Below, piece by piece: positions 1,636 through 32,489 of a stretch of DNA of 42,185 nt. Position numbers and translations under genes: made by a program. The notes beneath the pieces were generated by a model. The model had not been told where the DNA came from, searched no databases, and saw only the letters and a program-made list of their open reading frames with translations. Origin of the DNA: Fragilaria crotonensis (lineage: Eukaryota; Bacillariophyta; Fragilariophyceae; Fragilariales; Fragilariaceae); the NCBI GenBank assembly GCA_022925895.1, contig JAKSYS010000555.1, forward strand, positions 1 through 42,185, read 5' to 3'. Position 1 is the first letter of the stretch, and every line of letters starts with the position of its first letter.

Positions 1636-2445
1636 ATGATCATGACGAATGGAGTTATTATTGTCATTGGAGCTGTTGGTCTCCTGGTTTTCTTAGCATT
1701 TGTCATCCCCCCTGGTTATGACGACAGCTGCGCCGCGTATTCGTACGGTGGAAGCGCTCTGGACTGGGGAGGCATACCATGCAAACGAGGTATTGTCAAT
1801 CAATGTGGTGATTCATATGGTCAAAGTCCAATTAATCTCATGACCAGTGATGAAAATTTTGAGGCCTCCGAGAATGATGTAGTCATCGTTTCTGACAACA
1901 TGTCATGCCAAGATGAGTTAAACGTCGTTCACAACAAACTTCTATTCCCAGAATCTTGTTCCCCGACTATCAGCTTGGCGAGCCTGGAGTATCGCCTTAG
2001 GCAGCTTCATTTCCACGTCGGAGGAAGCGAGCACACCGTTGATGATTTCCGATTCGATGGTGAGCTCCATCTCGTTCAAGAGGGTCTATCAGGTTTTGTC
2101 GTTATCGGAGTATTTCTAGATTCATCGCAAGATGAGGCAAACGAGGATCTTGAGTTCATCCTGGAAATCTACGAAGGTGGAGCGCATCGACGACTGGCGA
2201 ACGAAGCCTGGAATCCATACAGTTTGGTTCAATCGCTTAACACCTACTTTACCTATCAGGGTAGTCTCACTACACCACCGTGTAGCTCTGGCATTCGGTG
2301 GATTGTCACACAAGAACCGCTTGCCATTTCTCAAGATCAATTGGGGCGACTCGCAGCTTTGTATCCATATGTGCCGAACTATCGGCCACTACAAGCGAGA
2401 GGTTCGCGACAGGTTATTCAATACTCGTCGGACAAGTTAAGGTGA
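1636..2445 (+). CDS. Alpha-carbonic anhydrase, membrane-anchored or secreted
   Basis: A complete 269-residue alpha-type carbonic anhydrase, catalysing reversible CO2 hydration with a zinc ion. Residues 6-24 are a hydrophobic helix (signal peptide or type II anchor), so the enzyme should face the secretory lumen, cell surface or outer plastid compartments. Family landmarks are all present: YSYGG at 36-40, QSPINL at 63-68, and zinc ligands His125 and His127 (QLHFH) plus His145 (ELHLV). Glu132 and Thr212 match the Glu106-Thr199 gate of human CA II. Cys57 and Cys216 sit where secreted members form a disulfide. The proton-shuttle His64 equivalent is not obvious. The length is normal and the frame is intact, unlike several neighbours. 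The ATG chosen is the first in frame and directly precedes the hydrophobic segment. A role in inorganic carbon acquisition is inferred from the family in diatoms. Confidence 0.93.
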   Translation: MIMTNGVIIVIGAVGLLVFLAFVIPPGYDDSCAAYSYGGSALDWGGIPCKRGIVNQCGDSYGQSPINLMTSDENFEASENDVVIVSDNMSCQDELNVVHNKLLFPESCSPTISLASLEYRLRQLHFHVGGSEHTVDDFRFDGELHLVQEGLSGFVVIGVFLDSSQDEANEDLEFILEIYEGGAHRRLANEAWNPYSLVQSLNTYFTYQGSLTTPPCSSGIRWIVTQEPLAISQDQLGRLAALYPYVPNYRPLQARGSRQVIQYSSDKLR

Positions 2446-3115: not shown

Positions 3116-3934
3116 CTATGCCGCCATGGTTTTGACGTACTTGCTCTCCGAAATCTCTCTCAAAACAAAGATTTCGCTCGGCATACACTGTGGACGCTGG
3201 CTGCGGCACTCATCCAGCATGGAAAATGGGGTAACATACCCATGGCTGCGAAGAAGTTGACGAACTGCCTCGTCCTTCTGTACGTTGGTGCCGTCCATCT
3301 CGATCACAAACATGTCGATGGGAACACTCCAGTCAAAGGTTTCGAGGACGGTTAGCTCCCCTCCCTCTACATCCAAGTAGAACAAGTCCACATGATCAAT
3401 CTCATTCTTCTGGAACAATTCTGATAGCATCATGCATGGCACCTCCACCAATGCGGCGGACGCGTCGACAAATCTATCTTTGTGAATATCACTCATGTCC
3501 TGTGCAGCACCACCCGTAGCACCATTTTTGGCAGGTTGAAAAGAGATGGATTTTCCAGGACAAATTGCTCCGAAGACATTGGTAGCGTCGGGTCGGTTCA
3601 CAACCATCTTCGCGTAATTGTCGGGAAATGCTTCAACCAGAAGGGCTCGCCAATTGAGAGCATATTGAAAGAACCAAGAGTTACTGAAGGTTTTTCCATC
3701 AAAGCCCCCATCTCGACGATAACACCATCGCACTTGGGATCTTTTGCGAAGAAAGCATTGTAGACAACTTCGTCCTCCATGTACTGAGAGATACGGGACA
3801 TTCGGGGTTGCGAGGCACTTCTGTGTGATTGTCTTAGGATCAGCATGGCCAGGTCGTAGAAATTGACACTCAACAACCACCAGGCTGGAAAGGAAAGCAG
3901 AAAGCGCGCATAAACGAAGGGTGAAAGCAGGCAT
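3116..3934 (-). CDS. Secreted FkbM-type methyltransferase, with two frame slips
   Basis: The chosen ATG at 3934 begins a clear signal peptide (MPAFTLRLCALSAFLSSLVV). The C-terminal part matches the FkbM methyltransferase family: NSWFFQYALNWRALLVEAFP, then FYLDVEGGELTVLETFDW (acidic AdoMet-fold strand), then a VIEMDG strand and a C-terminal RSHGY. The block ISQYMEDEVVYNAFF...VIVEMG, which should precede FDGKTFSN, lies in another minus frame (open 3876-3598). The protein must therefore leave frame near 3790-3825 and return near 3701-3709. At the second point one more base in the AAA run (plus strand) would restore the expected VEMGAFDG. The two slips compensate, so the downstream frame is in register with the signal peptide. 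Substrate unknown. It converges with the carbonic anhydrase gene. Family assignment is secure. Whether the gene is broken or the sequence has indel errors is open. Confidence 0.75.
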   Translation of the reverse strand: MPAFTLRLCALSAFLSSLVVVECQFLRPGHADPKTITQKCLATPNVPYLSVHGGRSCLQCFLRKRSQVRWCYRRDGGFDGKTFSNSWFFQYALNWRALLVEAFPDNYAKMVVNRPDATNVFGAICPGKSISFQPAKNGATGGAAQDMSDIHKDRFVDASAALVEVPCMMLSELFQKNEIDHVDLFYLDVEGGELTVLETFDWSVPIDMFVIEMDGTNVQKDEAVRQLLRSHGYVTPFSMLDECRSQRPQCMPSEIFVLREISESKYVKTMAA

Positions 3935-4090
3935 GGTGATGGTTTTGAGTTGATCTTCGCTTGAATGAGGTTGGTAAGCTGGGCTTCGTTGAGTGAAGAT
4001 TGTGATGACCCCTATTGGCCACAATGACGCAATGCTCGATGTCGTTTTGACTACCGCCTGTATCATATGGGTTCGTACCAGGTAGGTCAT

Positions 4091-4940: not shown

Positions 4941-5901
4941 TTAAGGTTGGTTGTCGGCACCGAAATGGGAGCACTCGTTGGAATAGACGCGTGCTTCGCA
5001 CTGTGGCGAGAAACGCTAGCGCCCACTGGATATTGACATCATGACCTTGGGGGTGTCCGCTATCCTTAGCGATGGACAGCAATGCACAATTACATGTGAC
5101 GGGGTGCAAGGATGCATGGATCCGTATCATTGATGCCAACAAAGATAAACTGCTCAGAACCATGGGGGGTCATGATAAGCCGTCACAAATCTTGCATCTG
5201 CTTTATCAACCTATCTGTGTCAGCGACCAGACCAGCAGAACAATCAAATTCAGTATCAGTTGGTGCAGCCAACTATGGAAAATTATGGTTGCAATGAGTG
5301 GACAAGATGACCATGCAACAATTGAATGGCTGGGATGCTCCTCTTTATACTCATTTTGGCCTGACGTCCAATGAATTGAGCTGTAGATACCACTGGACGG
5401 GGGTGCAGAGGACAGCATTGATTCAAATCCAGATCTTCCGAGATTGAGTTCATTTAACGGGAAAGTGAGAAATGTTCCCGACAACTCGATTGTCCCTGAC
5501 TACGCTGGATTGTTAGGACCACTGCTTGTATGCGTGTTATCCATGGGATATAAGAAATGGTGATTCCCAGTTTTTTGTTTCTAAACGTGAACCTACTATG
5601 ATAATGGTCGTGGCACTATGTTCGTGGTCTGCTTAATTGATTTGATTAGTCTAGTCCCATAACAATGTTGAAGGTAACGTAGTTCATCAATGCTCAAACT
5701 TGTTGTAGTTTGCAATGATGACACAAGCAACCCCGTCATGGTGAAAGATAACGATAGCATCGGACCACTCCGTAGCCCGTGTTGGTTTTTTTTCAGTGCT
5801 GTAGATTTTGTACCAACAGCAGCTTGAAAAGGAAAAAATACTGCGAAAACCGTGTGCACTGGAACCGCCGCCTTGGAGGTCGTATCGTTCATTCAAAAGT
5901 G
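4941..5901. other. Gene-poor stretch left of the piggyBac-like element
   Basis: Open frames of up to about 100 codons exist on both strands (for example 5072-5374 plus and 5206-5484 minus), but none shows a domain or a convincing start. The minus-strand region 5163-4940 probably holds more of the PS-rich remnant out of frame. The last bases before 5902 are the left outer flank of the transposon. Confidence 0.3.
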
Positions 5902-5914
5902 TAGGACAAAAAAA
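5902..5914 (+). repeat. Left terminal inverted repeat
   Basis: TAGGACAAAAAAA, an exact inverted match to 10268-10280. It is followed at once by a second GGACAA motif. Confidence 0.8.
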
Positions 5915-6025
5915 GGACAATTTTTGGCGATCCTCGCTATCTCCAGATTTCCAATACGACTAAAATCGTAGTCGTACATCCTGTTCCTGACTTCATGACC
6001 TTTCCAAATCAGTGCTGCTTTCCTA

Positions 6026-6129
6026 TTTTGTCCTAAAAATGGTGGAGATACATTGATGCAAAGAAAGACCAATTTTGTGGTCGTCGCAAAACTTTTTGTC
6101 CTAAATGAATCGCTCTGGAAAGGACAAAA
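6026..6129. repeat. Left subterminal GGACAAAA motif cluster
   Basis: TTTTGTCCTA occurs at 6026-6035 and 6094-6103, and AGGACAAAA at 6121-6129, so the last two form an inverted pair about 17 nt apart. These repeat the core of the terminal inverted repeat and are candidate transposase binding sites. Confidence 0.6.
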
Positions 6130-6259
6130 TTCACAAAAATACTCCGTACAAAAGTCAATTTTTAGATTTTCTCGTGATAAATTCTCATGTTAAATCTAAT
6201 CACCATGATGAGCATGGCCGCTATCTCTGGTTTAATAGACAACACTACTTTCTATCACT

Positions 6260-9200
6260 TCAAAACCTCCGTCTTGTCCTCCTTTCGGGTACTGTAATCG
6301 TACCAATGTTCCTGCGACGACTTGGAGGATGCTCAGGACTGCTTTTGCAATCGTCATCACTGCTGGAATTTTCTGGAATGAAGTCTTCATCGTCGTCATC
6401 GTTCCATGAGGCAGATGGTTGCACCATTGTCCCTCCTGCAGTCACAGCGCTCACAGAGGGTGGCACTATCACGTCTTCTGCAGACACAGCAGACACATTA
6501 TTGGCTCGACGGGGTGGCGGAGGCTGTCGGTTGCCGTGTGCGCGGACCGACAGTTGCATGCTTTGTGCTTCAGCACAACACGGGTCAAACAATGTCTCCG
6601 CTTCATGAAACAGAAGAAAACAGCTCTGCCCATTGTATCTTGGTCTTTTGCACAGGGGAACCTCACATACTGAACACTTCCACGTTGTCTTCATTCCGTG
6701 TCGAGTGTGCTTCTGTCCAGTTGAATGATCAATACGACAACACCAGACACAACTGGATTGCCTGTTGACGGAGATAGGTTGGTGGTTGGCTCTTTGATTT
6801 TTCCTCCGTTCAATGAGTGGTAGCTTGGAAAAGTATGCTTCGCGTTTGTTGTATGAAATATTAACACCTCCTGAAGAAGCGGCGTTGTCTCCTCCGTCCT
6901 CGGTCCTTCTCATCATCTGGCCATCGTCATCATCGCTGCAGCTTTCATACATTGATGGTGGAACAACTTCAATGTTTAAATCATTGGCAAGCTCTAGACA
7001 GAATTGGCGGAATGGAGGTTGACGCGCACGCCTCTGTTGGAAGTTCTTGAATGATTTGCATTCGTCACTCATAAGATATGAAACAGTTCGACTGAGATTG
7101 TGTGCGTGGTATGCATTGTAGACACATGTCATGATGAGGCGTAACCAAATTGCACCCACTGGACCGAGATGAAAATGCGCTGATTTGCAATTCTTTTGAA
7201 AGCGACTGTAAACATCGATCGGACCCTTGCCCCGATTCCATGTCGCCACCACCTCTGGAATTAGGTGGCGACCTGCCGGAAGAGGTTTCATTTGCTCATA
7301 AATCAACTTGCAGAGAGCTCTCCACAAGTCCAAGGTGCACTGGACGCTATGCTGATCAACTGCGTGGGACCCTGCTTCGAATGTCATAGCTGGCACAATC
7401 CCCTCCTCTATCCAATTCAGATGTTGCCGACCCAAATTCGTTATCACAGAAAGGTACTGTTCTCGTATCAAGGACGACCCAACTTGAACATGAACAACAC
7501 GGATTATCTTCCGTAGCGATGCGACAACGTAGAATGCATGGTCGAGAGCACCAGACGCCATACCATGGAGCAGTTGGCATCGGTACGACGCATCAGGGAT
7601 GCTTCGTTTGAACAGTTCAGGATCCTCGTCAGCGTTGATTTCTTGATACTCTCCAAACTCCGCAATCAGGTTGTACTCTTGAGTTAAGGTTGCCTGAGAA
7701 CACTTAGACTTCATCTCCACCAACGCCACATAACGCGTAGGGCCGGAAGGCAATCCGTCAACAAGAACACCTGCTATTGCATCCGGTGAAAACGCAGCCA
7801 GTTTCTCATCGGCATGACAAAGTAGTCCTAAGTCGTGAACAGTCTCAATTTTGATCTGATGACCTGCGGGTGCCAAGCATTTAGCACTTTTCTCGGAAAC
7901 GAACGAAGGGAAATGAGAAAATATAAATGGTTCGTTTAGTGTGCCTTCACGACAAGCTTTTGATTTGAAGGGTGCCATAAACCATGTCTTCATTAGCACA
8001 CTCAACACCGTAGTAGCCTCTTGGTTGCCTTCGTTGCGTCCGCCTGATAGTATTCTCTCTATCACAGCCGCCTTCGTCCCCGACACAGCTAAGTTTTTGT
8101 TGCGACATATTTCGCGGAGATCAGGAAGACCCATTTCACTTAGACGTTCATGTGTGAAGACAACGTCATCCACCGCCTCGTGTGTCCGTAGCAGGCTGAG
8201 AATCCGCAGCACTGCATTGATGTTCTCGTCGCGATCAACATCTGGATAGCGACTGAGTAGCATCCAAATAGCGTATGCACCTGTTCCTGTTATCCGAAAC
8301 TTTCGAAGCAGAAACCATTCAGGAGTTCGCTGGCTTTCCGTCAACATGATTGGAACTTTGTCAAGATATGGCATTACTGGATCGTCGTCGCTCCAGAACT
8401 TAATCGGTGCGTTCGCATCCCGCTGCGTGATCAGAGTGTAACGCCCTGGACCCAACGTTTCATCCGTTGTGTGCATGAGTACAACGCGACCCAACCCACT
8501 CCTGTTAGCCAAGGCGAACTGCTTGTTTCGTCCGGTTCCCCTGACAGCCCAATATGCTGCGGCGGTGCCCTTCTCTTGGACGAGCCGGCGTGAAGGGCCT
8601 GGGTTTTGGTCAAAGGTGAACGGAAATGATTTCATGCGTTTCGACGTGCCCACAAGCACAGCACCCTTTGCACTTGCAAACGAATTCACTTCACCTTCGA
8701 CGCCGCCGTAGCCTCTGTCCCAAAAGAATTTTGTCCTGTTGAGATAGATCTGAGACTCAATTGACGCTCCAGACAATGCAAGAAGGAGTATCTTTACACA
8801 ATCAATCGTCGACTCTTTCCTTGATGCGACATGGCCTCCACAGTACAAAGAAGTACAGTTGGAGACAGCGCCATGGTGGACGACGCCCAGCCCCTTGTTG
8901 GGGTTGTTTATCTGAGAGTACCCTTCAAGCACAACTCTTCTAGAACAAAGTCGTAGCAGATCATCATCGAGCCCGATGTCTGTTGTGCCAGGAACAAAAG
9001 CAATCTCAGCACATGTTCTGCGAACGATTGACATGGCAGTTGCCATATCTGTGTTGTGTGTCATAGGGGGCTTCCAAACTCCAACTCCTAACGAATCAAC
9101 AGTAAGACCAGTTGTTCCACACACCACCTGCGTTCGTGGAGCACGGTTGGTGGTATCGAGTGCTTTCAGTATTTGGCTGTACCGATAGTGACTCATGCCA

Positions 9201-9879
9201 CCAGTGGAGGAAGGGAAGTTCGATGCATTTGCAGGATCAAAGTACATAGAGGGGGAAACCTAAGAAGAGGGATGAGAACAAAAAGGCAAATTGCCGGTCA
9301 GTCCATTGATCAAATTAAAAACACAAGGAAGGCTTGCGTTGATATCCGATGTTCTTACCTTATAAAACGAAATCATGAGCTCGACACGAATGAATGCAAT
9401 TATGTCGGAGCTTGATACTAGATCATTACTATTTCTCATGTTGGAATTAATGAAGGCCTTCATGTATCCCAGAAAGTGTGGATCCATGAAGGCCTTCAAG
9501 CAGTCACCGGGCGAAATTGTACGAACATCCCGATCGCGCCTTGAACCAATTCTCTTTTTCAGGTTTCGAAGCACAACAGGAACTTCTTCGCGAGCCCTGT
9601 CAAGCAGACGGTTGTTGATGCCATCAATGGAAATGGAAACGTCTGGACGGTTGGATCCAGTGAGATACGTCCAGCCTTGACTTGCCACATCATGGCAATT
9701 GTTCCTCAAACCGCGCTGGGCAGAGGTATCATCATCACTTTGTCGTCGTCCTCATCGTTGTTACTACCGCTGACGTATGCACTCAGGTTGAACATGGTCT
9801 CCATCATGCTATTGTCAACATCTTCAATCCCTCCAAGGAGGTCCTCATTAGCACCTTCATATTGATCATCATCATGCAT
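6260..9879 (-). CDS. piggyBac-like DDE transposase with internal SAP and YqaJ nuclease domains
   Basis: The main exon is open from 9259 to 6260; numbering is from its Met at 9247. It carries DDE_Tnp_1_7-like blocks: Asp90 (GTTDIG), Asp177 (FFWDRGYGG), GTSKRMKSFPF at 200-210, and Asp678 (GPID) followed by IWLRLIMTCVYNAYH. Between Asp177 and Asp678 lie a SAP domain (about 363-400, ending VSGTKAAVIERIL) and a YqaJ-type nuclease (about 435-615) with SPD (Asp489), VEMK (Glu511, Lys513) and a QLLHGM helix. A C-terminal zinc ribbon (Cys833 to His881) and an acidic tail close the protein. An upstream exon (about 9747-9359) encodes the piggyBac N-terminal block (ISPGDCLKAFMDPHFLGYMK...FIRVELMISFYK). 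A 99-nt GTAAG...TTAG intron at 9358-9260 joins it to VSPSMYFDP. A further acidic N-terminus starts at ATG 9879 (MHDDDQYEG) in another frame, so one more intron or a frame slip lies near 9750-9710. Likely acts in the nucleus on the element's own ends. Confidence 0.85.
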
Positions 9880-10205
9880 GATGAAGTTGCTGCTTCATTT
9901 GCAATGGAATTTGCAATGAAATGCGAGTAGTAAAGAACTCGCATTGTAACAAGGTTCAGGTCGTGTTCATCAGCAAAATTGTCTCAACGACCATGCCGTG
10001 ATACTGTCATAACGTACCAACCCGTCATTCAACGTCAAAACTGGATTGCATACGCATAAACAAGTGTACCCCGGAGGTGCGTTTGGTAGTTGTGAAACGA
10101 TCCGTGACACTGAGCGAGTAAGCCATGAAGAATGGTGTGATCAGATCATGGTCAACACGGTGCTCTTCGTGTTAAACTTGATTAACCCGTGGTTATAAGG
10201 TTTCT

Positions 10206-10240
10206 TTTTGTCCTATTGCTAAATCCGCCGAAGGACAAAA
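10206..10240. repeat. Right subterminal GGACAAAA motif pair
   Basis: TTTTGTCCTA at 10206-10215 faces AAGGACAAAA at 10231-10240, repeating the inverted-pair arrangement seen at 6094-6129 near the left end. Confidence 0.6.
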
Positions 10241-10267
10241 TGGATTCGGCGATCCGGAAATTAAATA

Positions 10268-10280
10268 TTTTTTTGTCCTA
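10268..10280 (-). repeat. Right terminal inverted repeat
   Basis: TTTTTTTGTCCTA, the exact reverse complement of 5902-5914. Confidence 0.8.
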
Positions 10281-13017
10281 CCCGGCAGGATAAAAATGTT
10301 TAAAATCTTGTTTTGGGGGGGGCGGGAGTCAGGAGGTTCCTGCCTTCGTAGCGTGGCATGCTGAAATGAAGCCAGACTACTATGTCATACATCAATTCAA
10401 GGTTAGGTAATGCTTTAATGCTGAATACAGGTGAGTCATTTGTTCAGGCAAATTGAAATGCCCGAGTCATTCATCCGCATCTCTATAGGTGGTGCACTTC
10501 AGTCATTCCAAGCTCAATTTTTTGCGTACCTCGACACAGAAATCTCTTCACCATCTCTAGTATTGATCCAACACGGATATCAATTGGCGTGACGAGTTTT
10601 TTTTCGATTTATACTCAGGGCTTGAATATCTGTAAGTGTCATTTGCGGAATCAACTTGCCGGCTGGAGTCGTTTAGCACCTGAGTCACTTGCTCAAATGA
10701 CGCATGACGCATGAATGACCTTGAAGGATCTCATAATGCAGTTTAAGAAAAGGAACAGTTCCAATTTCCAATCATGCGGAGGCTACCGGTAGGTGTCACA
10801 AGTCACAACTCCTGCAACAGTAGGCAGAAGAGATGGAATAATGGCCATTAGCCATTACAAGCCACAACGATAGAACAATAGAACAATAGAAACAAAGCAA
10901 TCATTATGAAAACAACGGCCACAGGGGGAAGGGGATTCAGGTGAAAGAGGTCAAAACGGAATAGGACGCGGAGGTGTTGGGGGACAAGGAAGTAATCCAT
11001 TGTCGTTCCGTGTATGCAGCATCAACAGAATGTGCCCAGCGCACGGAGGACATCTTTGGCGCGACTGTTTCGTATTTACACTATTAACTACCATTAGGAC
11101 AGGCCTCAGTGTTGTCAGAGATGCGTTATTTCTTGGCTCCAGCTACAAGGCTTTTCTGTGGACTGCTACAGCAGCAGGGTATGCTGACGACCATTAGCAT
11201 GAAAGTTGAGAAGAGTTTTTGTATTGTCGCAGTAATGTCATGCAAGGGATGACCTGACTCTATTTGTCTCATTTTTTGAATGAAGTGACTTGATGGACTC
11301 CAATGATTTGCATCATCATGATCACTCTATTGCTTGTCGTTCTTTTTAGATTTGATGGACTCCAATAATCTCCATCTGCATCATCACTTGGTTCATACAT
11401 CTGTTACACACATTTTCTTCGGTCTTAGCTGAAATCAGGACTCAGGAGGCCTGCTTTTTCAGGTTTTAAATTTCGGGAATTTTCTTGATATCATGGCCTG
11501 AGAAACTCCCAAAAATTATTTCAATGTGGCAATTTTGTGTTAAAAATGGTCAAGCTTTGAAATTCACTGGGAAAGTAAAAAAGTGGCAGACCTTCAATTC
11601 TGAACAGGTCACAACCCTTTCCCTATGACACCCCAGATGTCCATGCATGCATTGGAATCCATTGTAAGGTGAATTGTCCTGCGCAGATTTGCACAGCATG
11701 TGAGTTTGTGGCATTGGCAATGCTGATACTCTTGACACCAAGCTGCCTGCACATGAAAGTTGACATCATATGATGCAAACTTCACAACTCTAGTACTACT
11801 GCACGTAAATGGCATTGATAGCCATCCTTGAAAACAGCATACTACCTCAATGTGGGAGGACAATTATGATTATAGAAATAAGAAAGCTGGAGCAGTAAAA
11901 AGGCTGCATCACTATGATAACATCCAGTTGGACGGTTTATTCAAGTAGGAACAAGAAAGTGGAAGCAGTGAAACAAGATCACCATAGTAGTTTGCTGGTG
12001 ACCTGAAGGCCATGACATTTCCCTTGCTAAGAACTATGGCTGGTGGGGTGGTGGCTGTTTCTTAAATTGTGTTGTGGAGTAAGGCAGGTACAGGCAATGC
12101 TGGGGGCATCCTTGATGAGATTTTGCCCACAGTTCTTCAACAAGTTGATCTGCCTGTGTTTCATGACACCAAGGATTCCTCAACAGCAGATCATCATCAA
12201 AATAATTGCCTCTTATTAAACATCTGGTAAGAGGAAAGCATTGAGATCATTGATGCCCAAGCAGCAGAAGAATTGAATGTCAAGTTGGATGCAGTTAACT
12301 CATCATACAGGGAATTATTCAGAGACTGCTGTTTGAGCCCAGTAAGACAGCTTTACAGAATATGTTTGGTATGTTTCCCAGTATAAGCTTGGTGGAATCT
12401 GACTTTGATTTCATCAGTTGCTGGTGAAGGATCCTTTTAGGATGAGGCATTTCCAAACAGCACCTACTACAATGAATCACTTTTCCATTGCACGCAAGCA
12501 AGAACACAGAAACATTGGAGAGCCTTTCAACATAGTAATTTGTACATCAATTGAAAGAAAGGAGGTACTTTTAGGCTCTTAATGGTGAGTAAACAATCCA
12601 ATTTACCGGTAGAAATTCCTCCATTTAACCCGATAATAATTTTTCAAATCTCACAAATTCAGTGATTTTTCGGTTATGTTCGAGCTCTGGAGGTTGCGGA
12701 AAATTGACTTTCGCTACTGGAAACGAGTACTGGACTATTCTAGATGCAGACACCAGCACACCGCAGTTCTTGTGTGCCACCATTCCACGTTGCGAGGTAG
12801 TGCAACCTTTAAAACCCCAAATTCGAACTCACTACAATATTTCATTTACGTCAATATCAGCTGGACCAATTTTGATTGCTGATGCGGAGAACGTGCTAAT
12901 CGTTTGTTATATTAAAAAACGACATACACATTTTCAATTGATGTCAATTACATTGTTGATACGATTGTACTATATGTAAGGATCATGTAATTACTCCGAA
13001 AATAGATATCCGCATCA
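10281..13017. other. Gene-poor, partly CpG-free DNA between two transposons
   Basis: No gene can be supported in these 2.7 kb. 10432-10735 holds TGAGTCA-rich sequence (separate entry). About 11935-12490 contains no CpG at all and reads TG/CA-rich, as expected of old methylated repeat DNA. In one plus frame around 12230-12340 the peptide EIIDAQAAEELNVKLDAVNS is coherent but runs into stops on both sides, so a decayed gene is possible but unproven. Runs such as AGAACAATAGAACAATAGAA near 10870 are simple sequence. Confidence 0.4.
10432..10735. repeat. TGAGTCA-rich block, inverted relative to the 13.1- and 22.7-kb arrays
   Basis: TGAGTCATTTGTTCAGGCA at 10432-10450 is a perfect 19-nt inverted match to 22645-22663, and the next motif (CC-x-GAGTCATTC, after an 11-nt gap) also matches. 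At 10678-10695 a second stretch matches 13094-13111 inverted at 17 of 18 positions. The block is thus homologous to the termini of the large element to the right, in opposite orientation. Confidence 0.65.
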
Positions 13018-14959: not shown

Positions 14960-17953
14960 ATGTCTAAAAAAAGAGCTTTTCTCAGTACTGCTCTTCTTGA
15001 CTACATCATCAACCTTACTAGTACAACTTTACTGCCTGACTCGACATTGTCACATACAGTACCGGCGGTTGAACCGTTGCTGGGTAGTCTTGGTGCAGAG
15101 GCATTTATATCATCAATGAATCTAACTGCCTCAATTAAAAGGGAACAAGCGAGAACAAAGAATGATTGGAAAGCATACCAGAATCACATTCGCAAGATTC
15201 GCACCAAGTTCAAGAATGTTCTCAAATACCATGTCAAGGATGGCGATTTCAAGAATATTCTCGATGAAAACATCGAGGATGTCCCACAGAGGCTTATTAT
15301 TCCAATTGTTCGGGGGCCACCTGATAGTCCCGGACATTTCTTTGTGGCATGCTTTGACTTTTCGGTAAATGATCCAAAATTCTTTGTGAACGTGTGTTTC
15401 TACGACTCTATGGAGCGCGCACGAACGAGAATTCATCGTTCCAGTACTGCTGCTGAAATTGTCGAGAAGGTCAACTTCTTCTTTAAGTTCTACATTCTTC
15501 ATGAAGCCAAATATCAGTCCCTACACCAGTCAGATGTCGACGTTCTTCAACGCGCACAATACAAAGAATGTCCTCGGCAGAACAATGGATACGACTGCGG
15601 AATCTTTACAGTCGCTGTCGTGTTACATCTTCTTGAACGAAAAGAAGTTGATGAGATGTCTTTCACTCAAAGTAATGTCACAGAAGGTAGGAAACACTTG
15701 GCGACGGCTTTGATTAATGCAAAATCCCCTTCACGTGAGCAGATTCGTGGCGTTTTCAGGAAATGCTTCCCTCTGCTCTTTGTCACCGAGGAGGGAAACA
15801 GTAGTGTCCCAACCATCGATTGTACTGAGGATCAGGATACACTATTGAGTGTTCCCTTGCAGGTCTGTGGTGGTGCCAACGACATCAAGGAGACCACCAG
15901 TGTGGACGACAAGGATGAGGACAACATAGCACTCCGGGTGAGAGACACAAAAGATTTGGCAACTCTGAGTGCAAGTGTGGACGACGAGGATGAGGACAAC
16001 ATAGCACTCCGGGTGAGAGACACAAAAGATTTGGCAACTCTGACTGCTGATGTGTTTCCTTCGAATAACAGAAACATAAGTAATGAGGCGAAGGTAAAGG
16101 ACGACGATGAAGAATTTTTTGACACCATCGACACTGACACTGAATCCCAGATGGAAGATGCTGCTGCTTCAAAGACAGAGAATGAAGATAGTGTTAGCGC
16201 TCTTTCAGGCGACACTACCTTCTACGACCTTATGAAGGAAGCAAAGTTGCAGTGCTTTCCAACACTGGAAGCTGTGAATCCTATTGTCGAAGCTTATGAA
16301 GTTCGGACTGGGAATTACTTGCGCATCAAGAGGTCAATCAACGACAAATTTCGTGTGTACGAATGCCGCGAGCATCTGGGGTGTCCTTTCCAAATTCGTA
16401 TCTCCCGCCGACGAGCCAATGGAAGTTTTGTGGTCTCGAAGATGAAGACCAAACACAGTGACGTTCGCCGCCCAGCAAAGGCAAAAGATGGGCGGAAATG
16501 GAAGAAGCGTCGCCATGCAAAGCTGAATGACATTGTCGTCAAGGTTCTCAAAACGAAGGATGGTGATCCGACACCGAACGACGTCATCAAAACCGCAGCA
16601 AACGAATGCGGTATAATTGTCCCTTACATGACGGCATACCGTGTAATAACAACCGATGCCGGGGTAGGACGGAGATTAATTGCGAAGAGTTTTGAGCAGA
16701 TTATCCCGTACGTAGAAGCCATGAAGAAATGCAACCCCAAGTCGGTCATCGGATGCACAAAGAGCGAAACCAACGAGTTGGTCGATGTCTATTTCTTTCC
16801 TGGTTTTATGAACGAGGCTCTGAAGTTTGTGCGACCTGTTGTTTCGCTTGACGCAACTCACCTGCGCAGCGAGTACAAGGGAACACTGTATGTCGCATCT
16901 GTGTTGTCAGGAAACAATGATGTGTTTCCCATTGGGCTGATGATATCTTCTGGTAACGAAGATGGAGCAACATGGACGAAGATGCTAAGGCTTCTCAAGC
17001 AAGCATCTCCTATCCTTAGTGGACGTTCATTTGTCTTTATTTCGGATCGGGATAAGGGTCTCAAGGCTGCCCTGGACGATGTTTTCCCAAGGAATTTGGA
17101 GTTTAGCTGTGCTAAGCACATAGAATCCAACGTGACCCAGCGGTTTGGAAAACAGTGTGGACGCTATGTTATGGCGATGGCCAAGACGTATTCTGCAAGG
17201 AATGCTGCTAATATGCTGGATCTGGTGCGCCAAATAAAGCCCAGCGCTGCTGCCTACATTGAAAGCATTGAAAGCGGCGGTGTGCTCTGGAAATGTTCAC
17301 AATGGATTGCCTGGCAACACTCAAACTTGCCCCCTCGATACGGAATTGTTACATCCAACACGAGTGAGAGCGTGAACAACATGTTCTCAGAGGCTCGGGA
17401 TCTGGCGTGGATGGAAGCTTTAGAAAAGATTGTTGACATTATGTCGACAAGGATTGGTGATTGTCGAACGAAGTATTTGAAGCGTGAGGATTCGGAAGTT
17501 GTTCCCCGTGTCGCTCAGATTTTGAAAGCACGTTGGGATGCTGCAGCATCCATGGCAGTGATGGAGATTGAACTTGGGTGTGGTGAGTTCAAAGTGACAT
17601 CATCAGAGTATGGTTCCACTGCTGACAAAGGCGAGCATGACATTGTCCTCTCCGTCGCCCACGGGTCACCAATGCACCAGCGAAGTATTCACATTGTAAG
17701 GCCTGGTGTACAATGGTGTTGGTGTGGGGCATGGCAAGATTGTATGTTTCCCTGCCGGCATGCCTGTGCGGTGTACAGAAAGTGGAAAGAAGTCGACTTT
17801 ATGACACCTTGTGTTCTTTTCCGCGTGAGCATACGAGCGTTGGGATTAACTCGACTCGGAAATGCCGTTCACACATCAAGAGTCAACGAGATGTTGTTGT
17901 GTTTGGGAATGATCCTATCGGTCAAGCCAGTCCGCAGTTCGGGGATGTACTGA
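14960..17953 (+). CDS. Mutator-like transposase fused to an N-terminal Ulp1 (C48) protease domain
   Basis: A 997-codon uninterrupted frame. Residues 1-250 form a Ulp1/SENP-type cysteine protease: STALLDYIINL at the start, His126 (GHFFVACFDF), Asp149 (CFYDSM), Gln207 and Cys213 (QNNGYDCGIF). All catalytic positions are kept. An acidic linker (about 290-420) holds a 25-residue tandem duplication. A MuDR-type zinc DNA-binding motif follows with Cys469, Cys475 and His499. The MULE transposase core shows Asp631 (VSLDATHL), Asp696 (ISDRDKGLKAA) with a C-x-x-H motif after it, and Glu803 (SNTSESVNNMF). A SWIM zinc finger has Cys920, Cys922, Cys932 and His934. Plant Mutator elements carrying Ulp1-like genes (Kaonashi type) are a known parallel. 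The frame just upstream (14767-14967, +) is protein-like and may be the true N-terminus after a one-base slip. Acts in the nucleus; may cleave SUMO-like conjugates (inferred). Confidence 0.9.
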   Translation: MSKKRAFLSTALLDYIINLTSTTLLPDSTLSHTVPAVEPLLGSLGAEAFISSMNLTASIKREQARTKNDWKAYQNHIRKIRTKFKNVLKYHVKDGDFKNILDENIEDVPQRLIIPIVRGPPDSPGHFFVACFDFSVNDPKFFVNVCFYDSMERARTRIHRSSTAAEIVEKVNFFFKFYILHEAKYQSLHQSDVDVLQRAQYKECPRQNNGYDCGIFTVAVVLHLLERKEVDEMSFTQSNVTEGRKHLATALINAKSPSREQIRGVFRKCFPLLFVTEEGNSSVPTIDCTEDQDTLLSVPLQVCGGANDIKETTSVDDKDEDNIALRVRDTKDLATLSASVDDEDEDNIALRVRDTKDLATLTADVFPSNNRNISNEAKVKDDDEEFFDTIDTDTESQMEDAAASKTENEDSVSALSGDTTFYDLMKEAKLQCFPTLEAVNPIVEAYEVRTGNYLRIKRSINDKFRVYECREHLGCPFQIRISRRRANGSFVVSKMKTKHSDVRRPAKAKDGRKWKKRRHAKLNDIVVKVLKTKDGDPTPNDVIKTAANECGIIVPYMTAYRVITTDAGVGRRLIAKSFEQIIPYVEAMKKCNPKSVIGCTKSETNELVDVYFFPGFMNEALKFVRPVVSLDATHLRSEYKGTLYVASVLSGNNDVFPIGLMISSGNEDGATWTKMLRLLKQASPILSGRSFVFISDRDKGLKAALDDVFPRNLEFSCAKHIESNVTQRFGKQCGRYVMAMAKTYSARNAANMLDLVRQIKPSAAAYIESIESGGVLWKCSQWIAWQHSNLPPRYGIVTSNTSESVNNMFSEARDLAWMEALEKIVDIMSTRIGDCRTKYLKREDSEVVPRVAQILKARWDAAASMAVMEIELGCGEFKVTSSEYGSTADKGEHDIVLSVAHGSPMHQRSIHIVRPGVQWCWCGAWQDCMFPCRHACAVYRKWKEVDFMTPCVLFRVSIRALGLTRLGNAVHTSRVNEMLLCLGMILSVKPVRSSGMY
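15899..16048 (+). repeat. In-frame 75-bp tandem duplication
   Basis: Two 25-codon copies, starting at 15899 and 15974, encode SVDD(K/E)DEDNIALRVRDTK followed by DLATL(S/T)A. They lie in the acidic linker between the protease and transposase halves. Only three residues differ if both ends are counted, so the duplication is recent. Confidence 0.9.
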
Positions 17954-21216: not shown

Positions 21217-22506
21217 TTAGATATCGAAGAGTGGAGCCCCATTCTCAAGCTGGTATTGGACAATCACACAAATTGCCTCAAAGCAAATCTTATGCTTTGC
21301 CATTCCATGGCGAAACTGATTGTCCAGGGAGGCGAAGTTTTTGAGCCTACCATTGAATGTTTCATGTCTGGCTCGAGCTCGTGTCTGTGATAGTTGTCAT
21401 TGCAATGATAATGTGATGCGACATCAAATATCATGAGAAAATTCCTCCTGTTGGCAAGCACATGATTTTGCAAGCAAAGCAAGCTCGTGCTTGAACTTAC
21501 CTTGAACTCCCGAAGCGCTGGCGTGTCACGCGAGTTTGGTGTACAAAGGATTTCTTTCTCGCCACGGTACCCCTGATCTGCTATTCCCTTCTTTCCCGTT
21601 GGTGTCTTCTCTTTCAGTCCCCCATCTTCACGGAAAATAGAAACATCATGCTTTGAAGCGACAAAGGGACCATTCATCCATACAAGTGAGTTATCGGAGA
21701 GAGAAATTGCAAGCTCGTATGCGAATCCTGCTTGATTGAACTTGTGCGAATATAATTGTTTGTCTTTGGCCAATGTTGGATGCATAACTTCATTTGTTCT
21801 GCAATGAATGCCATCGACTGAGTATAGAAAGTTTGGAACAGTTATGTCGGCAACGTGCACATTGTTCACAGCACCCCAGTGCTCTGGCCATACAATCTAT
21901 ATGCATGCGATGATGTCAGTTGTTGGTTTGAGAACATAATAAAGTACTAGCTAGTGGAGCACGATTCTTACCTTCTTTGCCTTCAAAGCCTGAATCCTGG
22001 AAGCAATGAACCAAGCCCACTTTCGAGCTGTTGTCTCACAGAGTTTGGAACTTCCAGCCAACTTCTCTTCTGTCGGGTATACATTCAGGAGGTATAGAGC
22101 AAGAAAAACTTGTCCAGAGTTGTTGCAGGATTGATGCGGGCCTCTTGAATCTCAGTTGTCAGCAAATCTTCCCATATGACAGCGCAGACGAGTGGGAACA
22201 ACCAAAATGGGATTGGAAGCGCTTGATGTTGGTGGCCCTAATAACTCGCTCTCGTCGGCAAGCATCAAAGCCTGCCCAATCAAGGCCAATTCGCATCACC
22301 TGGTCGACTGTGAAGATCATTTGTTTGGTATCGCTTGCTCTTGGTTTCTTGTGTTTTGTGACATGCGAGGGCAAGGCAGTGTGCCTGTCATCGTGAACGC
22401 CACGATACTCGAAACGCCATCTCACACGATAGCCTTGCAAAATAAACGGTTGCGGACGGACAACACAGAGAAATTTTGTATCGAAACATAAGCGTATATA
22501 GGTCAA
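21217..22506 (-). CDS. PIF/Harbinger DDE transposase, three exons, two frame slips in exon 1
   Basis: Exon 1 (to 21972) has VDQVMRIGLDWAGFDACRR and NIKRFQSHFGCS, then NPATTLDKFF, then LLNVYPTEEKLAG and ARKWAWFIASRIQALKAKK. These blocks lie in three successive frames. One more C in the CCC run near 22186 and one more base near 22100 would join them. Intron 1 (21971-21897, GTAAGA...ATAG) and intron 2 (21500-21385, GTAAGT...ACAG) are both phase 0. Exon 2 begins IVWPEHWGAVNN and carries the first Asp (YSVDGIHC) and second Asp (IADQGYRG). Exon 3 carries Glu in RARHETFNGRLKNF and ends APLFDI. This is a complete PIF/Harbinger (DDE_4) catalytic triad. The start codon is not fixed: no clear ATG precedes the first conserved block, and 22506 is only the frame limit. 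Cut-and-paste transposition in the nucleus, probably with the accessory protein at 13323. Confidence 0.82.
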
Positions 22507-23162: not shown

Positions 23163-23282
23163 ACATTTCCGGTGTTTTGCAACCGAAGTAGTATTTTCAA
23201 CTCCCTCCGGTATGTGTATACGACAGGGACCTGTAGAACTTGCAGGTACTGTGACAAAAACGCAGTGCGGAACATCAGGATC

Positions 23283-23315
23283 TTTTGCAACCCAGTTGCA
23301 CGTAGGGTTGCAAAA
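23283..23315. repeat. Perfect 11-bp inverted repeat in each tandem unit
   Basis: TTTTGCAACCC at 23283-23293 faces GGGTTGCAAAA at 23305-23315 across an 11-nt loop. The same hairpin occurs near 26122 and 28952. Further GTTTGCAACCC and GGTTGCAAAA motifs lie near unit ends, so this heptamer family marks the unit border. Confidence 0.8.
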
Positions 23316-25590
23316 TTTCTACGAGAGAACGGCGTAGGTTTGCAACCCAATCCGTGTTTTTTTGCAACTCGAATTAGTCAATCACAGCAGTACCAGGTAC
23401 AGTAGCAAAGTAAGGGTGCATTGGGGTAACCCTGATTTTCACGAGTTCTCAGATACCGGGTACTCTAGCCAAGTACTACCGTACTCCACTACTCCACTAC
23501 TCCAGTGCTCCGGTCCGTTCCTCACTACTCCTGTACAGCGTCAACCAGCAAAGGAAGAACAAGCATATAAACATGGTGTCTGGATTAGAATTCTTTTGCC
23601 TTAAAGGCACACTTGTTGACAGTTTTCTTTAAGGTTGAACAAATAGATAGATGATGGGTATGCTATGCAGCTATTGTGATGGAAAATCATGAAGATGATA
23701 TGATTTGTCAAGTCTTCATTCTTTGAGTTTTTCCTTAACATGGCATCAGGACAGTTGAGTCACTCAAATTGAGTCCAATTTACAAAATCAAGTGGGTATG
23801 ACTTTTTTGCATGTTACACATTCATGTCAAATGTATGTGTTGTTATGAGTCTGCTGTTGTGGAAGTGGTTCTTGAGTCCTCAGAAAGGAACACATTCAAA
23901 TTGCTGGTGATCTGAACAACAGGAATATCTTGGAGTTTGTGGTGAAACTCATGCTTTTTGCAACTGACACTGGTTCAATTAAATTAGTAGCCAGTGCTGG
24001 TAGTTCTTTGGAATGTGCCATAGGATAAAAAATGAGTTGTCAACAAAATTTATTTTTCAAAAGTGATTGTGACTGTGACCATGCCTGTTGAGTTGTTTTT
24101 TGCTGGTGATGTTAGACTTGGCAAAACGTATGTAGTGGATCCTCACACCTTCACTAGCTTGCTGGAACATCAGTCTGACTACTTTAACACTGTGATTTCA
24201 TGTACTTGTTGTTACAGTAGTCAGCATTTAAACTACGAAGATAAAATTCTCGAGAGCAGGAAAAATCCCGAATTTAATGTGTTCTAACTTGTGAACGGTC
24301 ACTCCTCACCAAAAACAAGCTACTAGTACAGTAACACCATGTGTTTTAGGGTGTACTACAATATGCTGGGTAGTCACTACATAAATCTTCCTGAATGAAT
24401 ACAATCAAATCACCAATTTCTCAATCTGTCCAGGTACTGTGGTAGTTTGATTTGTCCAGATACTCTGTCAATGCTTGTACTGCTGGAGTTCTTGGAGTAA
24501 TAGAGTACTGTACTCCAAATAATTTTCTTATCCTACATTCAGCTCTGACTGTCACAACACCACCTCAGGAGTACTAGCTAACTACTTCCAATTTCCAGTT
24601 CAACCCTCCTGTATGACCTTTTGCATAAAATTGTCAACAATGACTGAACCTGGCTGTCACATACGTTAGTCTTGTGGAAATCATGATTTTCAAGCTTCAA
24701 TGCTGTATTTATACAGACTTTTGTCTGTCCCCCTGCTTCTTAACAGAGAGAACAACAAGGTACACAACACCCTCTTTTTCTATGTAGTGGAACCATGAAC
24801 CAGCATCACTAGAGCCAGCTCACAAGAAGGGTTGTTTCAAGGGTCTCTGCTATCTTGTGGACAGTACTATGGATCAGCTTCTCTCACACAGAAGCTAATC
24901 AAGAGATTAGTGGAGGGTGGGCCATATGACCATGTAGGAAACCCTCACCAGAAATGTTATGTACTTGTGGCTGGTGGGTGTGATTGATTCTGGTATCAGA
25001 TGTGTGAACACTGGTTCTTGAGAGTGGTGCAAGTGGGAGGAAGACTCAAACACAAAGACTTGAAGGGTGTGATGCTGCTTGTAATGCATCTGCTATTGAT
25101 GCCATGGTACAATGAGCCAATTCTTTTTGTGCGTTTGTGCCTTGGAGCTTGGTACTTGCCAAGACCTCAAGTACTTCTGTTGATGCAGCCAGTCTTACTG
25201 TGGTGGGAATTTAAAGATAGTAGATAAGCCATGACCGTAGCTCTAGAATATATGCTGCTGGTGTTGCTTTGAAAAACCAAGAATGGAAGACCAGGATAAA
25301 CTTCCTGGCATGCACAACTCTACTGAGAGATCCAAAAAGGCATACATGTCTTTTGAGAAATGAAGACTACATTGTGTAAGATCTACACCAAGGAAAGTAA
25401 TCTGGGGTCAGGCTGTTATGATTATGTTTGCAGTGTAATTTACTTAGTAGATTATCATTTTTGAAAGACTTACTGGTTCTTATCTTTGATTGATTTATGA
25501 CTTATAATGGAGTGTTGACAAACAACAAATAAGCTCACAATCCTACAGAGAAACAAACAAAGAAAAAGCAGAGTATAAATAATACTGTAT

Positions 25591-25614
25591 TACCAGGTAC
25601 TTGAGTACCTGGTA
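25591..25614. repeat. 24-bp GTAC palindrome, one per tandem unit
   Basis: TACCAGGTACT is followed by its near-perfect inverted copy at 25591-25614 and 28422-28445. In copy 3 (31253-31276) a single change makes the palindrome perfect, centred on CTCGAG. A TATAAATAATA motif lies about 14 bp upstream in every copy. Confidence 0.8.
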
Positions 25615-26001
25615 CTGTTTTATTGCATTTGCGTTCAGTATAGTTATCCTGGTACATACTACTGTACCACGACAATAAAGTCAACATGCCGGTAGGTCTG
25701 TAGTTTTCATATAACGTGATGTATGGTACACAACTACAGCAGACGTGTAGAGCATGAGATGTGTAGCGATGTACTACGTACAGTACCGAGTACCAAGTAC
25801 CAAGACAGCAGGTGTTATTCAGGAAGCAAGAGGTCTAATTTTTCGATATTCTCCTTCAGTACGGTAAATGTGCGCTCGGTGTGATGCATACTCTAGGAAT
25901 TGATCCAGTAGCGTGGACTTGGTACATCTGGCTACGTTTTGTACGATTAATACTAGGCCTACGGGGTTGCACAACCGGTTGCAAAAAAAATGGGTACGGG
26001 C

Positions 26002-28836
26002 ACATTTCCGGTGTTTTGCAACCGAAGTAGTATTTTCAACTCCCTCCGGTATGTGTATACGACAGGGACCTGTAGAACTTGCAGGTACTGTGACAAAAAC
26101 GCAGTGCGGAACATCAGGATCTTTTGCAACCCAGTTGCACGTAGGGTTGCAAAATTTCTACGAGAGAACGGCGTAGGTTTGCAACCCAATCCGTGTTTTT
26201 TGCAACTCGAATTAGTCAATCACAGCAGTACCAGGTACAGTAGCAAAGTAAGGGTGCATTGGGGTAACCCTGATTTTCACGAGTTCTCAGATACCGGGTA
26301 CTCTAGCCAAGTACTACCGTACTCCACTACTCCACTACTCCAGTGCTCCGGTCCGTTCCTCACTACTCCTGTACAGCGTCAACCAGCAAAGGAAGAACAA
26401 GCATATAAACATGGTGTCTGGATTAGAATTCTTTTGCCTTAAAGGCACACTTGTTGACAGTTTTCTTTAAGGTTGAACAAATAGATAGATGATGGGTATG
26501 CTATGCAGCTATTGTGATGGAAAATCATGAAGATGATATGATTTGTCAAGTCTTCATTCTTTGAGTTTTTCCTTAACATGGCATCAGGACAGTTGAGTCA
26601 CTCAAATTGAGTCCAATTTACAAAATCAAGTGGGTATGACTTTTTTGCATGTTACACATTCATGTCAAATGTATGTGTTGTTATGAGTCTGCTGTTGTGG
26701 AAGTGGTTCTTGAGTCCTCAGAAAGGAACACATTCAAATTGCTGGTGATCTGAACAACAGGAATATCTTGGAGTTTGTGGTGAAACTCATGCTTTTGCAA
26801 CTGACACTGGTTCAATTAAATTAGTAGCCAGTGCTGGTAGTTCTTTGGAATGTGCCATAGGATAAAAAATGAGTTGTCAACAAAATTTATTTTCAAAAGT
26901 GACTGTGACTGTGACCATGCCTGTTGAGTTGTTTTTGCTGGTGATGTTAGACTTGGCAAAGCGTATGTAGTGGATCCTCACACCTTCACTAGCTTGCTGG
27001 AACATCAGTCTGACTACTTTAACACTGTGATTTCATGTACTTGTTGTTACAGTAGTCAGCATTTAAACTACGAAGATAAAATTCTCGAGAGCAGGAAAAA
27101 TCCCGAATTTAATGTGTTCTAACTTGTGAACGGTCACTCCTCACCAAAAACAAGCTACTAGTACAGTAACACCATGTGTTTTAGGGTGTACTACAATATG
27201 CTGGGTAGTCACTACATAAATCTTCCTGAATGAATACAATCAAATCACCAATTTCTCAATCTGTCCAGGTACTGTGGTAGTTTGATTTGTCCAGATACTC
27301 TGTCAATGCTTGTACTGCTGGAGTTCTTGGAGTAATAGAGTACTGTACTCCAAATAATTTTCTTATCCTACATTCAGCTCTGACTGTCACAACACCACCT
27401 CAGGAGTACTAGCTAACTACTTCCAATTTCCAGTTCAACCCTCCTGTATGACCTTTTGCATAAAATTGTCAACAATGACTGAACCTGGCTGTCACATACG
27501 TTAGTCTTGTGGAAATCATGATTTTCAAGCTTCAATGCTGTATTTATACAGACTTTTGTCTGTCCCCCTGCTTCTTAACAGAGAGAACAACAAGGTACAC
27601 AACACCCTCTTTTTCTATGTAGTGGAACCATGAACCAGCATCACTAGAGCCAGCTCACAAGAAGGGTTGTTTCAAGGGTCTCTGCTATCTTGTGGACAGT
27701 ACTATGGATCAGCTTCTCTCACACAGAAGCTAATCAAGAGATTAGTGGAGGGTGGGCCATATGACCATGTAGGAAACCCTCACCAGAAATGTTATGTACT
27801 TGTGGCTGGTGGGTGTGATTGATTCTGGTATCAGATGTGTGAACACTGGTTCTTGAGAGTGGTGCAAGTGGGAGGAAGACTCAAACACAAAGACTTGAAG
27901 GGGTGTGATGCTGCTTGTAATGCATCTGTTATTGATGCCATGGTACAATGAGCCAATTCTTTTTGTGCGTTTGTGCCTTGGAGCTTGGTACTTGCCAAGA
28001 CCTCAAGTACTTCTGTTGATGCAGCCAGTCTTACTGTGGTGGGAATTTAAAGATAGTAGATAAGCCATGACCGTAGCTCTAGAATATATGCTGCTGGTGT
28101 TGCTTTGAAAAACCAAGAATGGAAGACCAGGATAAACTTCCTGGCATGCACAACTCTACTGAGAGATCCAAAAGGCATACATGTCTTTGAGAAATGAAGA
28201 CTACATTGTGTAAGATCTACACCAAGGAAAGTAATCTGGGGTCAGGCTGTTATGATTATGTTTGCAGTGTAATTTACTTAGATTATCATTTTTGAAAGAC
28301 TTACTGGTTCTTATCTTTGATTGATTTATGACTTATAATGGAGTGTTGACAAACAACAAATAAGCTCACAATCCTACAGAGAAACAAACAAAGAAAAAGC
28401 AGAGTATAAATAATACTGTATTACCAGGTACTTGAGTACCTGGTACTGTTTTATTGCATTTGCGTTCAGTATAGTTATCCTGGTACATACTACTGTACCA
28501 CGACAATAAAGTCAACATGCCGGTAGGTCTGTAGTTTTCATATAACGTGATGTATGGTACACAACTACAGCAAACGTGTAGAGCAAGAGATGTGTAGCGA
28601 TGTACTACGTACACGGAGTACCGAGTACCAAGTACCAAGACAGCAGGTGTTATTCAGGAAGCAAGAGGTCTAATTTTTCGATATTCTCCTTCAGTACGGT
28701 AAATGTGCGCTCGGTGTGATGCATACTCTAGGAATTGATCCAGTAGCGTGGACTTGGTACATCTGGCTACGTTTTGTACGATTAATACTAGGCCTACGGG
28801 GTTGCACAACCGGTTGCAAAAAAAATGGGTACGGGC
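26002..28836 (+). repeat. Tandem unit copy 2 (2835 bp)
   Basis: Copy-specific features: GCAAAGCGTATG near 26957, AAGTGACTGTGAC near 26897, shortened T and A runs, and GAGCAAGAG near 28582. It shares GAAGGGGTGTG and the shorter TTAGATTATC with copy 3. Confidence 0.9.
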
Positions 28837-31670: not shown

Positions 31671-32489
31671 GTACGTAGTGCACGCTACCATGAAGTAATA
31701 GTCTACGGTGGTACTGCATATAGTAGTAATGATACAACTGTGGCCTACATAAAGAAGGACTGGAGTACAAGTACAAAATTTGCGCATTGATTTAATGTAT
31801 CCCTATAAATCAGCTAGAAGCAGTATGACAGTGTACTAGCACTCTAACCCCTAAGCTCTAAAAAGGTACACAGTCTCACTCTTTGGATTTGTATCTTTTA
31901 TGATGTCCTTTTATTGCACATTTTCCTATTTTGTACGACCAATTTTACTCAGCTCATCAGACCCAACCGCTCTGGGATGGGCAATGACAACGCCATGCTA
32001 CCCATCATTCAATGATTTGTAGAATGTCCGTGGGAGACTCTGCATATTCTCAAATCATGTGGTGTGTTCTACGTTCCGGATGCCTTGTTGGTAAGCCTTG
32101 AACTGCCCTCGTCTTCCATTGAACTCGAACATAATATATGGATCATGTAGCCTGGAAGAGTATCCGGTGGTCTCCGCATCCCGATACATCTGCCTGTCAA
32201 ACGAAACGAGACAACCTCGACTAGACCCAAGGGGCGCCTTGACCCATGTCCATACCATCATGCTGGATGAATTCTATACGGACTACTGTGAGTCACTTCT
32301 GAACACCAGCAGGACATACATTTCTATAATCCGGTGATTAATATGTCCTGGCACAACCGATATCATGCCTAATTCAACCACGGTTGAACGGATCAACGGA
32401 CCACCAGCCATCCGAAAGGTTTTGGATCAACAACCGTTGGCTGGTGGTTTCTCATCATTACTCTTTTTGTTAAGACCACTCCGGTCAAC
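31671..32489. other. Spacer right of the tandem array, with a hairpin before the Copia gag
   Basis: No recognised gene. A minus frame at 32261-32055 (68 codons, with FEFNGRRGQF) looks protein-like but is unidentified. ACCACCAGCCA at 32400-32410 and TGGCTGGTGGT at 32438-32448 form an 11-bp perfect inverted repeat about 40 bp before the gag start, possibly in the element's leader. No long terminal repeat was found here. Confidence 0.4.

Follow-up and report, generated by a model that had tools for sequence, protein, structure and literature searches.

A piggyBac-related transposase of Fragilaria crotonensis with a predicted SAP-bearing nuclease between its second and third catalytic aspartates

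A piggyBac-related transposase gene and its copies

We analyzed a 42,185-nucleotide stretch of DNA from the diatom Fragilaria crotonensis (the window; contig C509 of a 62.1-Mb assembly of 881 contigs), in which an earlier note, made from the sequence alone, had described a piggyBac-like transposase interrupted by SAP and YqaJ nuclease domains. The gene lies where that note had placed it, from 9879 to 6260 on the minus strand, as do all of its features given below, and it consists of two exons. Exon 2 (6260..9259) is an open frame of 999 codons plus stop, while exon 1 (9359..9879), which by counting begins with an ATG at 9879, the same end as in the earlier note, encodes an acidic N-terminus and the start of the piggyBac DNA-binding/dimerization region and was matched in all 20 of the loci L009-L028. 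The 99-nt GT-AG intron between them (9260..9358) contains an in-frame stop, and the joined exons read SFYK followed by VSPSMYF across the splice junction. One relative, L012, has its own GT-AG intron at the same site; in L016, L020, L022, L023, and L026-L028 the two exon parts are contiguous, without an intron. Residues are numbered here by exon 2, with the V of VSPS as residue 1, so that the earlier note's numbers are 4 lower. In all, the window and 23 other loci (L009-L028 and L041-L043) were read.

The protein had been called a piggyBac-like transposase, and this is borne out by a match to DDE_Tnp_1_7 (PF13843) in the spliced product. The match (9140..9514) spans the splice junction and covers profile positions 1-95 of 349 (E 1.2e-6; 28.6 bits against a cut-off of 22.4); in spliced L012 it reaches E 1e-9 and 38.6 bits, while Pfam searches of the window's exon 2 alone returned SAP families only. 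Profile searches of the family were made at E 0.1 with 75 rows, drawn from 22 loci in addition to the window; DDE_Tnp_1_7 matched 8 of the rows (best 2.4e-7). These matches end at profile position 94-97, ahead of the first catalytic Asp, and rows beginning after the matched region gave nothing over the cut-off. The same genome also encodes compact piggyBac-like proteins, and aligning the N-terminal half of the family with these by hhalign yielded E 1e-5 locally, in the pre-catalytic part, and E 0.0015 globally, with none of 60 column-shuffled decoys scoring as high in either mode. The global alignment pairs GLDDD (D98) with VDES and FWDRGYGG (D181) with ADSYF. One of the compact proteins, L036, matched piggyBat (9c0f) at 4.3e-13 with the first and second Asps aligned, and 6x67 at 0.013.

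By this global profile alignment, the first catalytic Asp would be residue 98 (GLDDD; 8966..8968), which is D in all 19 loci with a letter there, and the second residue 181 (FWDRGYGG; 8717..8719), which is D in 19 of 20 loci. The third, residue 682 (WNRGKGPID; 7214..7216), is placed by motif and conservation, with D in 16 of 18 loci. The Asp177 and Asp678 that the earlier note had set on either side of the insert are thus D181 and D682. Its first catalytic residue, Asp90, is our residue 94, a position held by D in 8, Q in 10, and M in 1 of the 19 loci with a letter; the conserved Asp is 98.

Farther downstream lies a Cys/His domain (residues 837-885; 6605..6751) whose Cys and His residues are kept in 17-21 of 19-21 loci. 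When the C-terminal half was compared locally with the compact piggyBac-like proteins, this zinc ribbon alone was matched (E 0.006; score 30.8, best decoy 30.0), and two short family alignments gave no result against the compact proteins in hhalign. The zf-Tnp_2 family was found in 6 of the 75 rows (best 9e-5, at 23.4 bits against a cut-off of 24), with no match in the C-terminal parts of the window protein, L012, or L016, and DDE_Tnp_4 matched neither the window protein nor any of the 75 rows. Sequence searches of the PDB returned nothing for the window protein and nothing relevant for the N-terminal half of spliced L012; with the family profile, they gave hits at 0.015-0.12 to three SAP or DNA-binding chains and a further one, at 0.95, to an ABC transporter. 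The protein is best explained as the transposase that a piggyBac-related DNA transposon of the cut-and-paste type encodes. We call the family piggyBac-related, not piggyBac, because its target duplications are not strictly TTAA.

Elements of the family have demonstrably moved. The stretch that the window shares with other copies in blastn runs from 5890 to 10301 (minus strand), and at both of its terminal inverted repeats the outermost bases are missing; among 20 loci, the left end fell at 5890-5902 in 10 and the right end at 10298-10301 in 8. The terminal repeats start CCCC or CCCCC where read. We surveyed the ends of 23 copies (the window and 22 loci, L043 excluded), reading those of the seven-copy intronless lineage described below by eye. 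Both ends were readable in 16; the other seven were the window, which has no repeat ends, L012, L014, L018, L025, and L042, each with one end, and L021, which was not looked at. Identical 4-bp flanks were present in 10 of the 16 (3 TTAA and 7 CTAA, ATAA/TTAT, or CTAG), and all ten exact duplications have a central TA (NTAN). Flanks were one base apart in 4 copies and unrelated in 2. The mismatched duplications belong to L020, L026, L009, and L015; the first two of these are members of the young lineage, in which mutations should be few. Non-TTAA 4-bp flanks also occur at 3 of the 7 compact piggyBac-like elements that were looked at, by eye; the idea that the nuclease had led to a looser choice of target was considered and dropped on this ground.

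At least 72 matching stretches, some of them fragments, lie on at least 27 contigs and at no fewer than 28 places in the genome. The intron-bearing lineage comprises the window, L009-L015, L017, L019, L024, and L025 (L021 was not resolved). Intronless copies are L016, L020, L023, L026-L028, and L042, and also L018, L022, L041, and L043; compared row by row, most share 35-65% identity with the window. One intronless lineage includes seven copies with 98.4-99.5% identity over ~4.0 kb and so moved recently, although all seven have frame breaks. L012 is intact, with 1215 codons once the intron is removed, and its exon 2 shares 64% identity with that of the window. As to the window copy, it had been credited with a clean frame and a retained zinc ribbon and, on that basis, with probable function. 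Exon 2 is indeed clean; exon 1, compared with copies L009 and L010, shows a frame shift near 9745, and both terminal repeats lack their outermost bases. It is unlikely that the copy in the window is intact.

A separate observation concerns L025 (C38:73000-82900), in which an internal deletion has removed the equivalent of window positions 6303-8427 and the terminal parts are kept; it is a possible non-autonomous derivative. The genome also holds 84 PF13843 stretches, many of them compact and piggyBac-like with diverse ends; the few flanks read were not TTAA. Relatives were not found in two scans of viral contigs or one scan of prokaryotic genomes, collections that are non-eukaryotic and have little bearing on distribution.

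A predicted nuclease and a SAP domain between the second and third aspartates

D181 and D682 are separated by 501 residues, compared to 119-126 in compact relatives from the same genome (8 of 11 compact open reading frames [ORFs], those in which both Asps could be read). The insert thus amounts to ~377 residues in excess of the compact relatives, rather than the about 320 estimated earlier. Within it, motif I of a nuclease (residues 309-327; 8279..8335) comes first and would form the N-terminal nuclease part; it is conserved, and its residues and spacing are those of Q19-W24-R28-S35 in an alignment of lambda exonucleases. Next is a SAP domain (residues 374-404; 8048..8140), for which the proposed PF02037 check gave E 1.3e-5 and 25.2 bits against a cut-off of 23.9; the same family reached 29.6 bits in L012 and matched 15 of the 75 rows. 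The remaining nuclease motifs follow in a predicted PD-(D/E)XK core of the lambda exonuclease/YqaJ type (residues 430-600; 7460..7972). SAP therefore does not precede the nuclease, as had been thought, and instead interrupts it.

The core carries Glu443 of a G-x3-E motif (7931..7933; E in 16 of 16 loci), Asp493 of SPD (7781..7783; D in 17 of 18), Glu515-x-Lys517 (7709..7717; each kept in 16 of 18), and Gln562 of a Q helix (7574..7576; 18 of 18). The three residues singled out earlier as Asp489, Glu511, and Lys513, which are 493, 515, and 517 here, are present in the window copy as well. AlphaFold modeled the core with a predicted local distance difference test score (pLDDT) of 67 and a predicted template modeling score of 0.71; its nearest structures were LHK-Exo and lambda exonuclease, which it matched moderately, and there were matches in PDB and BFVD. 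This agrees with the nuclease fold that had been expected of the YqaJ part. Ten of the 11 columns that are invariant in the phage alignment are present in the family nuclease, including in lineages at ~45% identity; G30 of that alignment is replaced by Phe, and the nearly invariant phage residues E64, G68, and F206 were not placed.

The Pfam YqaJ family (PF09588), the other check that had been proposed, matched none of the 75 rows at E 0.1 and nothing in the genome, and none of 33 rows at E 10, with filtering that removes most matches above 0.1. Two short family alignments, compared with the phage nuclease alignment in hhalign, gave E 0.003 and 0.006, with probabilities of 10.6 and 6.6% and the correct register. 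The PHROG family phrog_434 was matched weakly, in relatives, and a tblastn search of phages with the nuclease-plus-SAP part recovered the SAP-like stretch alone, in 4 phages at ~0.5. The assignment as a nuclease is thus based on motifs, on the modeled fold, and on the weak PHROG match to relatives, and lies below Pfam detection. The nuclease is likely to be catalytically active in intact copies.

The insert falls in the interval between the second and third Asps, where DDE transposases carry their insertion domain. Excerpts of PMC7351741 describe the piggyBac RNase H domain as broken after strand 5, where an insertion domain (372-433) intervenes; topologically, this is the site used by the other DDE/D transposases that have insertion domains, and the domain lines the channel receiving target DNA. 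An AlphaFold model of exon-2 residues 1-910, built with the 75 partial rows, had a pLDDT of 37.4 and was not used. Collectively, the PF13843 match, the SAP match over its cut-off, the modeled nuclease fold, and recurrence in diverged copies uphold the proposal of a SAP-bearing YqaJ-type nuclease between the two Asps, and we consider it very probable that the transposase holds the nuclease and the nuclease in turn holds the SAP domain.

Catalytic residues of the transposase and of the nuclease alike persist at ~45% identity. With the window as reference, nonsynonymous divergence (dN) from L012 and L013 was 0.26 and 0.24 in the nuclease core, 0.18 and 0.18 in the first DDE part (92 codons in L013), and 0.20 and 0.19 in the third-Asp part, compared to 0.43 and 0.53 in the SAP stretch and 0.46 and 0.57 in the acidic tail. 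Synonymous sites are saturated or beyond estimate in these comparisons, which leaves ratios to synonymous divergence (dN/dS) rough. By these dN values, constraint on the nuclease between diverged copies comes close to that on the transposase core.

Other features of the window

The window also holds two likely host genes: a eukaryotic-type carbonic anhydrase (1636-2445, plus strand; 1.5e-34) and an FkbM-type methyltransferase (3116-4090, minus strand; 2.2e-13). On the plus strand, a 997-amino-acid ORF (14960-17953) joins a Ulp1-type cysteine protease (PF02902, 1.4e-8) to a MULE transposase (PF10551, 5.6e-11) and contains a 75-nt tandem duplication at 15899-16048. A fragment of a Harbinger-type transposase (PF13359, 2.2e-7) is found at 21264-21896 on the minus strand, followed at 23163-31695 by three head-to-tail units of ~2.83 kb, of which the pieces compared are 78-100% alike, mostly >93%. 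Rfam had no match in the window.

Possible roles of the nuclease

A role for the nuclease in processing ends or donor sites, as suggested earlier, is reasonable as a putative assignment. At piggyBac ends, according to excerpts of PMC7351741, a hairpin over a 4-nt flank is resolved to a 4-nt flap before joining at a new TTAA. In this family of NTAN duplications, donor and target tetramers can differ, so that the flap would be unpaired at the new target and would need removal. We propose that the DDD center performs the strand cuts and joins, while the nuclease, kept near DNA by SAP and by its position beside the target and hairpin channel, would trim the 5' (non-transferred) strands in the transpososome, the DNA removed most likely being the four-base tails brought from the old site. 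Because a mismatched flap cannot pair, a 5'-strand nuclease beside this channel would be suited to its removal, and the one-base-mismatched duplications could reflect the joining of mismatched flaps. Whether two cooperating centers in one chain, an RNase H-type DDD center and a lambda-exonuclease-type center in the insertion domain with SAP inside it, process both strands is in our estimate an even question, and the particular task of trimming 5' strands is put forward tentatively. As a whole, the combination of nested architecture, a cutting and joining DDD center, and a tethered trimming nuclease is the explanation toward which we lean.

Several results weigh against it. In the third-Asp region, decoys did as well against the compact piggyBac profile in 11 of 100 cases locally and 47 of 100 globally, and in global alignment of the whole C-terminal half 38 of 60 decoys did so. 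This missing profile link would suit a transposase from another DDE superfamily, such as ISL2EU, which likewise uses YqaJ: excerpts of PMC4482050 report that ISL2EU elements encode a YqaJ exonuclease protein. That origin is nonetheless very unlikely, given the PF13843 score of the spliced protein, the zf-Tnp_2 matches, the lack of any DDE_Tnp_4 match, and the separate ORF that holds the ISL2EU nuclease. A second group of adverse results concerns the nuclease itself. When the window copy is compared with L009, the copy nearest to it, dN/dS in the nuclease core comes to 1.09 (very few changes, over 124 codons), and L009 carries E515K at the nuclease Glu and L041 carries K517N; the ratio and the Lys in L009 suggest that, among relatives of the window copy, the youngest may be free of selection by now. 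The same changes would fit a catalytically idle scaffold, in which SAP and the nuclease fold only bind DNA or enlarge the insertion domain, and to our knowledge no other DDE transposase has a nuclease as its insertion domain. Retention of 10 of 11 phage-invariant residues in lineages ~45% identical, and the constraint on the core between diverged copies, render an idle insert improbable. Finally, tetramers also vary in relatives that have no nuclease, which suggests that the host can manage without one.

The chief competitor to flap trimming places the nuclease at the donor site, where 5' to 3' resection of the excision break would favor repair from the sister chromatid, restoring the element and raising copy number. 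The characterized lambda-exonuclease-type member is a 5'-3' resecting enzyme, and the fold, the matches on 27 contigs, and the recent burst of seven near-identical copies all accord with this. Bursts also occur in transposons that have no nuclease, however, and 74 of the 84 PF13843 stretches lie outside the loci of the nuclease-bearing family (insert presence was not checked for each); we regard donor-site resection as possible though doubtful. The partial degeneration of the window copy could also raise the suspicion that two neighboring elements or genes were fused by assembly error or by chance insertion in one degenerate copy. With the nuclease Asp in place in 17 of 18 covering loci on separate contigs, and with an intact copy in existence, recurrence has already refuted such an artifact, to which we give almost no credence; the matching stretches, at least 72 on 27 contigs though not every one covers the full protein, are more than chance.

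Several known systems resemble this family in part. Like piggyBac and piggyBat (6x67, 9c0f), it has a PF13843-matched N-terminal region, three conserved Asps, an extra domain between the second and third, a probable counterpart of the C-terminal Cys/His domain, and 4-bp target duplications. Unlike them, the window gene has an intron and the duplications are NTAN, those of piggyBac being strictly TTAA; the nuclease and SAP occupy an interval of 501 residues, compared to 101 in piggyBac (D346-D447, from excerpts of PMC7351741). It shares with lambda exonuclease, LHK-Exo, and phage YqaJ-domain exonucleases the fold and the Q-x4-W-x3-R-x6-(S/T), G-x3-E, SPD, E-x-K, and Q-helix motifs, and differs from them in the SAP interruption, with ~67 extra residues between motif I and G-x3-E, in being embedded in another enzyme, in the change of G30 to Phe, and in lying below Pfam detection. 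ISL2EU, of the PHIS superfamily, is also a eukaryotic DNA transposon pairing a DDE transposase with a YqaJ exonuclease, but its YqaJ is on a separate ORF and its transposase falls in the PIF/Harbinger, ISL2EU, and Spy group; the excerpts of PMC4482050 that state this give the role of the additional ORFs of PHIS elements, YqaJ included, as unknown. KolobokP, with a transposase plus a His-Me finger nuclease, is another eukaryotic DNA transposon with an accessory nuclease, an unrelated one.

In the open-license PubMed Central literature, we found no description of a piggyBac-type transposase with an internal nuclease, although a Repbase entry without discussion is possible; the portions of PMC9942806 and PMC3212892 that answered to our search terms hold nothing on a nuclease within a piggyBac transposase. 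We put at about even the chance that the family represents an undescribed lineage of DDE transposases with two such cooperating centers. A nuclease covalently held in the catalytic domain would stand in a fixed geometry and stoichiometry to the transposase active site, and single-residue knockout of either center would directly test the role of such nucleases. If true, the insertion slot of RNase H-like transposases can hold a whole enzyme, itself holding another domain.
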